This document shows positions 2,999 to 48,028 of a stretch of 64,000 bases of DNA, piece by piece. The translations under genes were made by a program, and so were the position numbers. Below the pieces are notes generated by a model. That model worked only from the letters and a program-made list of their open reading frames with translations. It made no database searches and was not told where the DNA came from. Within the stretch, counting starts at the first letter, position 1; each line of letters begins with the position of its first letter. Source of the DNA: a bacterium (GTDB taxonomy: Bacteria > Cyanobacteriota > Vampirovibrionia > Gastranaerophilales > Gastranaerophilaceae); assembly GCA_014803505.1 (NCBI GenBank), contig JAAVBM010000016.1, forward strand, positions 1-64,000, read 5' to 3'.

Positions 2999-3221
2999 TA
3001 AAAAATCCTCTAATTTCATACATAGAGGACAACTGCAAAAAACTCTATAATCCTTTCTAAACTGCACGTAGACAAGGTAGTTTTTGAGTGTTCCGACTTT
3101 TACGGTTGCGGCTACAGTTGAAGATGTTCACTTCATTTCCTCTTGTTCATGATATTAAATTAAGCAAAAAAACATGTCAAACTAATGTAATAATTTAAAA
3201 AATATTGTTACACTAAACAAC

Positions 3222-43853: not shown

Positions 43854-45221
43854 ATGTTTGGAGTAATATTAGCAGGCGGCTCAGGAAGCAGACTATGGCC
43901 ATTATCAAGAGAACTATACCCTAAACAATTGTTAAATTTATGTGCTGAAAAAAGCTTACTCCAATCTACTTTTGAACGTTTAAATAAATTTATTCCTTCT
44001 GAAAACATTATTAGCGTTACCAATACAAAACATAACGCAAATATTAGAATGCAACTTGGCGAATTAAGTGAAAATTCAATTATTATATCTGAACCTATTT
44101 CAAAAAATACAGCACCGGCAATCGCATTAAGTGTAAAATATATTATTGAAAATTTTAATAAAGATGAAATTATTTTAGTTGTTCCTTCAGATCTTTTTAT
44201 TGAAGATAATGAAAAATTTATTCAAACAATAAAAGAAGCGGAAGAATTTGCTAATAAAGGATTTATAGTAACTTTCGGCGTAAAACCAACTTATGCGGAA
44301 ACAGGTTTTGGATATATTTGTTTTGAAAACAATAAAGTTAAAGCTTTCACAGAAAAACCTGACACCAAAACAGCAGAAGCTTATTTGCAAAACGGATATT
44401 TTTGGAACAGCGGAATATTTATGTTCAAAGCTTCAACTATTATGGCAGAATTTGAGCATCATTGCCCTGAAATCGCTTCTATCTTAAAAAATATAAATTG
44501 TTCTGATAAATCAATTTCATTTAACGAATTCGATAAAATGCCAAATATTTCACTTGATTATGCGGTTTTAGAAAAAAGTAATAACATTATGATGGTAGAA
44601 CTAAAATCTGATTGGAAAGATTTAGGTTCTTGGAAGTCTATTTATGAAGTAAGTCCAAAAGATAATAATAACAATGTATTTATCGGGCATGTTTTAGATA
44701 AAGAATCAAAAAATTCTTTCGTTTATTCTTCATCAAAACTTGTTGCTACAATCGGACTTGAAGATACTGTTATTGTAGAAACAGAGGATGCAATTCTTGC
44801 TTGCAAAAAAGACAAAACCCAAGATGTTAAACAAATCTATGAAACACTTAAAGAACAACATGACGGAACACAAAAAGTTCATAAAACAGTATATCGTCCT
44901 TGGGGATTTTATACAGTTATTGCAGAAGGTAAAGGTTTCCAAACAAAAATTATTCACGTTAATGTTGGTCAAAAACTTTCTGTTCAATCACATAACCATA
45001 GAAGTGAACATTGGGTTGTTCTATCCGGCATGGCTAAAGTCGTTTTAGAAGGTAAAGATCATATTCTTTCCCCTGGACATAGCATTGATATCGGAGTAAA
45101 AGCTATTCACTCGTTGCAAAATCCTTTTGAAGAAGATTTAGAAATTATTGAAATTCAAAAAGGTGATATTCTTTCTGAAGACGATATTATTCGCTACGAA
45201 GATATGTATGGCAGAGCCTAA
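43854..45221 (+). CDS. manC: mannose-1-phosphate guanylyltransferase/mannose-6-phosphate isomerase
   Basis: GVILAGGSGSRLWPLSRELYPKQLL; C-terminal cupin VYRPWGFYTVIAEGKGFQTKIIHVNVGQKLSVQSHNHRSEHWVVLSG. Confidence 0.95.
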   Translation: MFGVILAGGSGSRLWPLSRELYPKQLLNLCAEKSLLQSTFERLNKFIPSENIISVTNTKHNANIRMQLGELSENSIIISEPISKNTAPAIALSVKYIIENFNKDEIILVVPSDLFIEDNEKFIQTIKEAEEFANKGFIVTFGVKPTYAETGFGYICFENNKVKAFTEKPDTKTAEAYLQNGYFWNSGIFMFKASTIMAEFEHHCPEIASILKNINCSDKSISFNEFDKMPNISLDYAVLEKSNNIMMVELKSDWKDLGSWKSIYEVSPKDNNNNVFIGHVLDKESKNSFVYSSSKLVATIGLEDTVIVETEDAILACKKDKTQDVKQIYETLKEQHDGTQKVHKTVYRPWGFYTVIAEGKGFQTKIIHVNVGQKLSVQSHNHRSEHWVVLSGMAKVVLEGKDHILSPGHSIDIGVKAIHSLQNPFEEDLEIIEIQKGDILSEDDIIRYEDMYGRA

Positions 45222-45222
45222 G

Positions 45223-45453
45223 TTAAGACCAAGTAATTTTATATTCTAGAGCTGTTGCGATTTTTATTACATCTATATATTTTATTGAACCTCTGGACAA
45301 TTTATTATTAATGCTTTGTGCAGAAACTGATTTGCCATATTTTTTTGTCAAAATTTTAGCCAAAGATTCATAAGTATACCCTCGCATCCTTATATAACCT
45401 TTGATTTCGTTACGCATAGTCTCTATTAATTTATCTTCAGAAATTTGAGCCAT
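45223..45453 (-). CDS. small HTH-like protein (DUF6471-like)
   Basis: LIETMRNEIKGYIRMRGYTYESLAKILTKKYGKSVSAQSINNKLSRGSIKYIDVIKIATAL. Confidence 0.7.
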   Translation of the reverse strand: MAQISEDKLIETMRNEIKGYIRMRGYTYESLAKILTKKYGKSVSAQSINNKLSRGSIKYIDVIKIATALEYKITWS

Positions 45454-45517
45454 AATAAAATTTTATACAGTTTCATATATTATGTAAACGAAAACGAAAG
45501 ACTTTTTACCTAATCAC

Positions 45518-45560
45518 TTGACTTATATACATAAACGTATATAATATATACATAAGTCAA
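45518..45560 (+). promoter_or_regulatory. sigma70-type promoter TTGACT-N16-TATAAT embedded in inverted repeat TTGACTTAT...ATAAGTCAA
   Basis: -35 at 45518-45523, -10 at 45540-45545; 9-bp perfect IR arms at 45518-45526 and 45552-45560. Confidence 0.6.
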
Positions 45561-45650
45561 ATTTTTTGTTAAAATCAGACTTTTAACACACTAAATTTGA
45601 ATCTCTGGAAAGATTTTAACGGGTGATAAAATATTATCCGTTTTTTATTT
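45551..45650 (+). ncRNA. candidate orphan small RNA (about 95-100 nt), three hairpins
   Basis: Hairpins GTTAAAA/TTTTAAC, AATCT/AGATT and 11-bp AACGGGTGATA/TATTATCCGTT followed by T-rich tail; no ORF; flanked by a convergent gene. Confidence 0.45.
45618..45650 (+). terminator. plus-strand intrinsic terminator
   Basis: AACGGGTGATAAAATATTATCCGTTTTTTATTT; fully paired only as + strand RNA (two G-U pairs). Confidence 0.65.
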
Positions 45651-45673
45651 GCAAAAAATTTCAAAATAAACAA

Positions 45674-48028
45674 TTATACGGATAAAAGTTGTTCTAAATC
45701 GTCTTCTAAAAGAGTTTTTTGGAAGGTTTCGTTCTCGATTATCATATCAAAAATTTGTGCATATTTTTCATTATGGAGAATTTTAGATAAATCATCAATT
45801 CCAAGAAACTCAATAACATAAAATGCATTGTTTTTATCTGTAATTTTCAAGAACCCTACTTCTTCATACAATTCAAGAAGTCGTTCAAATACTTTAATTG
45901 ATTTACCTAAAAATGATGCACAACGCACAAGTTCAATCTTACCGCCATTATTATGAGCCGCAAACTTAACCATACCCGTAAATGTTTTTAAAAATTCTGA
46001 TTCATCTAAAAATTTCGGCTCATATTTCATAAAATGAACCTTTGTTGGCTGGGCTTTTTCAAGAATTTTATCCAAAGTTTCTCTATCGGCAGGGTAATCA
46101 AAAAACATTAATATATCACATTTAGGAATATCTAATCTATTAAAGGTTCTTGAGAATATTTCAGTATAATTTTTAACAGTATCTAAAATATACTTACTTT
46201 CTGCAAATATTCTTATTTGAGATTTTGAAGTTTTAATATAATCATTTATATTAGGCAAAATACCTGTTTTTGTACGATTATCATATATTTTATAAGCACT
46301 TTTGACAGGAATTTCTTCTACTAAACTGTCAGAATGAATATCATCGACAACTAATTGAACAGAAGTATTGCCGTTAAATTCATTTATTTGTGGATGAAAA
46401 GCTATATCCAAGCTATCACCGGAACTAAGATTTATATCACCTTTTTGCCATCTTACAGCTGTAAATTCATATGCATCAACACCCAAATTCAAACGCAAAT
46501 GAGAATTATCAGAGCCCATAAGTCGTTTTTGTTTAAGCTTAAGATTGTTCATTGCAAATATCGGACTAGGATTTGAAGCCCCAAAAGGTTCCAGTTTTGA
46601 AATTTCATCTATAAGATTTTGGTTAACATCAGAAGGATTTAACAATAAATCTATTTTTACAAAAGGTTTTAATTCTTTATTTGCAGTATATTCTTTCACC
46701 GTTTCGCAAAGAGCGCGTTTAACTGTTTCAAATGGAGTTTTTTCTCCGGAAAAACTTAATCCTGCCGCAAGTTTATGACCGCCAAAGCCTTCAAAAAGTT
46801 CGGCATTTGCACACAAAACATCATATAATGGTACACCTTCAATACTTCTTGCTGAACATCTGTATTCATTTTTTTCCCTGGAATACGTCATCATAAATAC
46901 AGGCTTATAATACTTTTCAACCAGTTTTGAAGCAACAATACCAATAATTCCTATATGCCAGCCTTCATTACACAAAACAATTGCCGGATTTTTATTTCCT
47001 TCTTTTTTAACCATTTCATCAGCTTGAAGAAAAATTTCCTGACAAAGAGTTTGACGAATTTTATTTAACTCATTCAAAGTAGTAATAGACATTTGAACTT
47101 CTTGCGGATTGTCAGAAATCAAAACTTTCAAAGCTGCATCTACAGTATCAAGTCTACCTGAAGCATTTATTCTCGGGGAAACCCCAAAAGCTATGTTTTC
47201 GGAAGTTACACCCTTTGTAATATCATAACCGGCACTTTCAAGTAGTTTTTTTAAACCTTCATGCCTGCCTTTTGAAATAAGTTCTAAACCTTTAGTTACA
47301 AAACATCTGTTTTCACCAAGAAGCGGAACGATATCAGAAATTGTTCCAACAGCAACAAAAGGTAACAAATCAGATATTAATTCAGCTCTTTCATATTTTA
47401 CCAAAAGAGCCTGAGCAACTTTAAAAGCGACACCACAACCAGCCAAATAAGTTAAGTGTTCAATCTGTTTGGTAGACAAACTTTCATCCAAAGCATTAGG
47501 AGCTTTCGGGTTAATAATAGCATAAGCTTCAGGTAAAACCTCCGGAGCTTCGTGGTGATCAGTAATTATCACATCGATAATCTTAAAACTATTGATAAAT
47601 TTAATTGCATCAACATCAGAAATTCCGCAGTCAACAGAAATAATAACTTTAGGTTTGATAGTTGTCATGAGTTTAATCAAAGCTTTTTTGTCAAAACCAT
47701 GACCTTCACTTTCTCTATCCGGAATATAATATTTAACGTCTGCACCAAGTTCTTTAAATGCTTTATATAAAACAGAAGTTGAAGTTACACCATCAGCGTC
47801 AAAATCTCCATATATAACAATAGTTTCTTTGTTATCAATAGCCTTTGATAAGCGTTCAACAGTTTTTTCCATATCTGAAAAAACATATGGAGAAGTAATA
47901 TCCATTTCCAACGGATTCAAAAAACTATGAATTTCGTCTTCAGTTGTAATACCACGAGAAAACAATAATCTTTTTATCAAAGATTTTTCATTAGTTACAG
48001 TATTATCAAAAATCCATTCTTTTTTCAT
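45674..48028 (-). CDS. recJ: single-stranded-DNA-specific exonuclease RecJ
   Basis: YGDFDADGVTSTSVLYKAF, ISVDCGISD, DVIITDHHEAPE, RINASGRL, GFGGHKLAAGLS. Confidence 0.95.
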   Translation of the reverse strand: MKKEWIFDNTVTNEKSLIKRLLFSRGITTEDEIHSFLNPLEMDITSPYVFSDMEKTVERLSKAIDNKETIVIYGDFDADGVTSTSVLYKAFKELGADVKYYIPDRESEGHGFDKKALIKLMTTIKPKVIISVDCGISDVDAIKFINSFKIIDVIITDHHEAPEVLPEAYAIINPKAPNALDESLSTKQIEHLTYLAGCGVAFKVAQALLVKYERAELISDLLPFVAVGTISDIVPLLGENRCFVTKGLELISKGRHEGLKKLLESAGYDITKGVTSENIAFGVSPRINASGRLDTVDAALKVLISDNPQEVQMSITTLNELNKIRQTLCQEIFLQADEMVKKEGNKNPAIVLCNEGWHIGIIGIVASKLVEKYYKPVFMMTYSREKNEYRCSARSIEGVPLYDVLCANAELFEGFGGHKLAAGLSFSGEKTPFETVKRALCETVKEYTANKELKPFVKIDLLLNPSDVNQNLIDEISKLEPFGASNPSPIFAMNNLKLKQKRLMGSDNSHLRLNLGVDAYEFTAVRWQKGDINLSSGDSLDIAFHPQINEFNGNTSVQLVVDDIHSDSLVEEIPVKSAYKIYDNRTKTGILPNINDYIKTSKSQIRIFAESKYILDTVKNYTEIFSRTFNRLDIPKCDILMFFDYPADRETLDKILEKAQPTKVHFMKYEPKFLDESEFLKTFTGMVKFAAHNNGGKIELVRCASFLGKSIKVFERLLELYEEVGFLKITDKNNAFYVIEFLGIDDLSKILHNEKYAQIFDMIIENETFQKTLLEDDLEQLLSV

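Follow-up and report, generated by a model that had tools for sequence, protein, structure and literature searches.

A DUF6471 regulator gene with a divergent putative small RNA at the manC-recJ junction of a Gastranaerophilaceae genome

Described pairs of regulators and small RNAs

The genes oxyR and oxyS show an arrangement similar to that of gcvA and gcvB. In the latter pair a LysR regulator is accompanied by a divergent, trans-acting small RNA (sRNA) (PMC1557403). A further pair has been described in Bartonella, where the genus-restricted structured small RNA Brt and the small helix-turn-helix (HTH) DNA-binding protein Trp were proposed to form a circuit controlling a surface protein; the Brt RNAs, 194-203 nt long and present in nine copies, precede trp in tandem on the same strand, and their expression was shown (PMC5387305).

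The window analysed here (64,000 nt of contig JAAVBM010000016.1, assembly GCA_014803505.1) carries between manC and recJ the gene of a small DUF6471 HTH protein and, divergently from it, a putative sRNA. The Gastranaerophilales/Melainabacteria are non-photosynthetic gut relatives of cyanobacteria, and word searches of the text collection used here returned nothing relevant on small RNAs in this group or on DUF6471. The original prediction spoke of an undescribed system, which is too strong, since a regulator beside a divergent sRNA is the known arrangement of gcvA/gcvB, where likewise a control region separates two genes that point away from each other. The regulator here, however, belongs to DUF6471 and not to the LysR family, and the unit, an insert of patchy occurrence between convergent genes, has no Rfam family at gathering score. 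With Brt/Trp it shares the pairing of a small RNA with an HTH protein, but the putative RNA of the window is divergent, about 100 nt long, present in a single copy and predicted from the sequence. Neither gcvA/gcvB nor Brt/Trp is related to the window unit by any test made. In the same bacterial family there are units with the same HTH family and divergent promoter-operator that carry prepilin-like or Stealth/GT8 cargo genes, whereas in the window the cargo position is taken by a non-coding stretch without any ORF.

Architecture of the unit

The genes manC (plus strand, ending at 45221) and recJ (minus strand, ending at 45674) are convergent, and the 452-nt unit at their junction fills the whole interval (Table 1). 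The stop codons of manC and of the HTH gene nearly touch, with no terminator in between. Genome comparison, in which the window's own genome is designated G000, gave a size of 0.43-0.45 kb for such units, each consisting of a DUF6471 HTH gene, a divergent promoter and a non-coding stretch.

The HTH gene passes the curated cut-off of Pfam PF20075 (29.2 bits against 26.8), and no significant match to its protein was found among solved structures. Homologues in G035, G066 and G067 are 75-77% identical. At four loci (the orphan loci) no coding gene adjoins the HTH gene, and these four HTH genes form one clade (SH-aLRT 97). Across the order DUF6471 HTH genes are multicopy, with many per genome and up to 17 in G020.

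In a consensus scan the divergent promoter ranked among the three best within 20 kb. An imperfect palindrome, reading ACATGTATAATATACATGT in relatives, surrounds its -10, and the TGTAAACGAAAAC element is kept upstream of close HTH homologues, one to three copies being present in relatives. In 387 family genomes the promoter motif, with up to two mismatches allowed, was found 15 times; 13 of these occurrences adjoin a DUF6471 gene, and the control patterns run for comparison were almost absent from the same genomes; the full motif occurs once in the window's own genome. This promoter-operator motif is hardly seen apart from these HTH genes, which makes the link between promoter and HTH protein a strong one. 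The adjacent protein would most likely control the RNA promoter, as repressor or as activator, through a candidate binding site to which conservation alone points.

The ORF-free stretch of about 100 nt behind a strong promoter, as originally described, is indeed there: no plus-strand ORF of at least 60 aa was found between 45222 and 45673, and stops interrupt all three plus frames of the stretch, as they do all frames in G066. The start of the putative RNA at 45552 was placed from the position of the -10. The three hairpins that had been noted were found in the sequence with their letters and positions, and as a fold they stood in part: hairpin 1 and the terminator were recovered, hairpin 2 is weak in the best fold, and the minimum-energy fold has an additional outer helix (45557-45564 with 45593-45600) enclosing hairpin 1, which had been missed. 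The 100-nt fold reached -20.8 kcal/mol against -11.5 kcal/mol for shuffles (z -3.35), none of the 200 shuffles being as good. Since z is only -1.3 at this locus when the terminator is left out, the structural signal is mostly that of the terminator. Its stem, AACGGGTGATA(AAA)TATTATCCGTT at 45618-45642, is followed by TTTTATTT and is much more stable on the plus strand (-10.0 kcal/mol) than on the minus strand (-3.5 kcal/mol), in agreement with the claim that it points only one way; it is also the sole terminator-like site in 44400-46400. An own promoter, an own terminator and the absence of an ORF are among the marks by which bacterial intergenic sRNA genes are recognized, and the stretch has these three.

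As had been expected, no Rfam family scored high enough to pass its gathering threshold here; all that appeared at E <= 10 lay below threshold and was put down to chance, including the best match, DapZ (E 0.18, 20.5 bits where 56 are required). Far from the unit, an AdoCbl-II cobalamin riboswitch scored above its gathering score at 3081-3153 of the window (minus strand). No further copies of the stretch were found in its own genome, where the weaker matches were AT-rich chance similarities or lay within a coding gene.

Table 1. Coordinates (window positions) of the features of the unit
Feature	Position	Strand	Basis
Inserted unit (HTH gene, promoter, RNA, terminator)	45222..45673	.	adjoining manC and recJ stops at the empty sites of G068, G065, G020
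DUF6471 (PF20075) small HTH-type regulator, 76 aa	45223..45453	-	Pfam E 8.3e-07; stop abuts manC stop
Putative HTH-gene promoter TTTACA-17-TAAAAT	45460..45488	-	consensus scan 10/12
TGTAAACGAAAAC element, overlaps the -35 of the HTH gene; candidate operator for the HTH protein	45483..45495	.	conservation; role putative
Divergent promoter TTGACT-16-TATAAT	45518..45545	+	11/12 consensus; sigma-70-type
Putative small non-coding RNA, about 99 nt	45552..45650	+	no ORF; fold z -3.35; aligns to G066, z 4.0
Hairpin 1 GTTAAAA(TCAGAC)TTTTAAC	45568..45587	+	sequence and folds; counterpart in G066
Hairpin 2 AATCT(CTGGAA)AGATT	45600-45615	+	sequence; weak in best fold
Intrinsic terminator, 11 bp, two G-U pairs, T-rich tail	45618..45650	+	terminator scan; stem energies

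Occurrence and conservation in related genomes

The unit was found at two unrelated convergent junctions, namely manC/recJ in two genomes and decarboxylase gene/fliR in two others. At the first of these G066 has a unit like that of the window, and in G068, G065 and G020, where the unit is absent, manC and recJ stand stop to stop without a terminator. At the second, G035 and G067 hold a unit of 432-434 nt (HTH protein 75-76% identical), and the corresponding gap is -1 to 40 nt at the empty sites of seven relatives. The HTH-side end of each unit almost touches the neighbouring stop codon.

Judged from base substitutions, selection is visible on the non-coding body in one species pair, G035 and G067: only 5 of its 68 nt (7%) have changed, compared with 186 of 352 four-fold sites (53%, p 1.5e-13) taken from the HTH gene and three neighbours. 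In the HTH gene alone 13 of 22 four-fold sites differ; this four-fold divergence means that the whole unit was not recently transferred between the two. The changes at paired positions (G-U/A-U and G-U/G-C) preserve the pairing on the plus strand, and the hairpin of this type is without a T-run. Full matches of the G067 body in the 387 family genomes were confined to G035 and G067.

The bodies of G000 and G066 align above shuffles (z 4.0), with 33% mismatch against 70% at four-fold sites, a comparison in which the gapped alignment favours the body. At the place of hairpin 1 G066 has the counterpart GTTAATG(TAATTTTTT)CATTAAC, which shows two both-side changes if the loops are structure-aligned; the automatic alignment misplaces the second arm of this hairpin, and its consensus fold was set aside. 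Loss of the hairpins in relatives with the same flanking genes had been named as evidence against the sRNA, and was not what we saw: G066, with its manC-HTH-recJ order, keeps the hairpin and, like the window, a T-tailed plus-strand terminator, the two terminators being different in sequence. The bodies of G000 and G067 did not align above shuffles, and the two sequence types align poorly. The conservation evidence comes from four genomes and two sequence types, with two genomes per type, and points to a strong constraint in G035/G067 and a moderate one in G000/G066. A search for more relatives gave the same species set among GTDB contigs and none among viral contigs.

The fold z of the four orphan loci ranges from -3.3 to -4.8; among 24 HTH-homologue loci, of which nearly all have a coding gene downstream, the mean is +0.09 and none is below -1.36. 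Without the terminator the folds of the orphan loci are weak (z -0.5 to -2.1), and in three of the four the plus strand gives the more stable fold.

Origin and role of the putative RNA

In the other close HTH homologues the promoter mostly reads a coding gene, which is of the Stealth, GT8 glycosyltransferase or prepilin-like type, and the prepilin-like proteins bear the type IV prepilin N-terminal motif. An ORF at the cargo position is absent only in one HTH clade, in four genomes. A AATTTGTTAA-like segment before the ribosome-binding site is common to relatives; G067 retains GGGAAGTATGAAT, 13 bases identical to those that form the ribosome-binding site and start of the G128 Stealth gene, and a Shine-Dalgarno-like GGGAAGTATG, resembling a truncated gene start, persists in G035 and G067.

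We favour, with somewhat better than even confidence, the reading that the locus comprises a DUF6471 HTH gene and a divergent sRNA of about 100 nt, which would be under HTH control, would go back to the leader of a cargo gene since lost, and would act as a base-pairing regulator. The HTH protein would bind the shared operator-promoter region and control the promoter of the RNA as well as its own gene, and the RNA would end at its own terminator. This RNA would have taken the place of a cargo gene with a surface-related product, a prepilin-like protein or a glycosyltransferase, and probably descends from the leader of that gene, because the promoter and the AATTTGTTAA-like segment are shared and the retained bases in G067 equal the gene start of G128; its most likely mode of regulation would be base pairing. 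The comparison with relatives strengthens the sRNA reading. From the complete sRNA gene paired with a regulator, as it had been proposed, the promoter-body-terminator unit and the HTH linkage stood, and were met at two loci, whereas the transcript, its role in trans and the suggested repression by the HTH protein are still putative. If the pair is real, it is a defined regulator-RNA pair open to test, in which an mRNA leader, once its coding region was lost, may have turned into an sRNA; coding relatives, orphan relatives and empty sites are all at hand for comparison. A wider scenario, where a mobile unit inserting between convergent genes has swapped its surface-protein cargo for a leader-derived, HTH-switched sRNA, is offered only tentatively and is doubtful.

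The main rival is that only a relic promoter has been kept for autoregulation of the HTH gene: the cargo gene was deleted, the promoter-operator stayed, and what is transcribed is a short leader that has no function and stops at a terminator. This we consider unlikely, although the coding genes behind the promoter of most close homologues, the gene start preserved in G067 and the failure of the two sequence types to align all speak for it. Cargo genes also appear damaged in L080, L082 and L084, where the divergent prepilin-like gene seems broken or without a clear start near the promoter, which suggests frequent cargo decay. A relic should drift, however, and the body shared by G035 and G067 has been held far below the change at four-fold sites; furthermore G066 keeps a plus-strand terminator despite its altered sequence, and the stripped unit is present at two loci.

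It is rather improbable that the RNA, or plus-strand transcription itself, acts only locally with no target elsewhere, either by countering transcription that runs on from recJ (or fliR) into the HTH gene or by modulating the HTH promoter. Such a role is conceivable because at both loci recJ or fliR is codirectional with the HTH gene and the RNA lies antisense between them. The search for a trans target found none: the complement of the conserved G035/G067 loop had 40 matches with at most 3 mismatches in these genomes, against 11 for the reversed control, and no consistent gene-start target was common to both genomes. The duplex between the RNA and the HTH mRNA was near shuffles in all four orphan loci, and the lack of a strong one fits an effect of the act of transcription. 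A cis role alone, nevertheless, leaves the conservation of the 68-nt body unexplained.

That the terminator merely belongs to manC and no separate RNA is made has very little probability in our view. The nearly touching stop codons of manC and the HTH gene, which have no terminator between them, would suit it; but at the empty manC/recJ sites the stops adjoin and there is no terminator, thus it arrived with the unit, and the manC read-through product that the original prediction had itself considered is weakened. Moreover, a strong promoter intervenes, and the layout in G035/G067 is identical without manC. A tiny peptide instead of an RNA is hardly credible, since in spite of the ribosome-binding-site-like GGAAG ahead of an ATG in G035/G067, all frames are broken in G000 and G066, the G035/G067 frame would enter the hairpin and differs in length, and the body contains a one-base indel.

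Related loci showed some further peculiarities. At L042, L043, L078 and L079 prepilin-like genes divergent from a DUF6471 HTH gene show unusual additional sequence ahead of or within the region of the FTLAE methylation motif, as if short inserts had entered the starts of these genes. The manC-recJ junction of G001 (L095, 199-1494) is occupied by a different unit, composed of a prepilin-like gene on the minus strand and, divergent from it, an XRE-type HTH gene on the plus strand, both of which nearly touch the neighbouring stop codons, and this junction looks like an insertion hot spot.
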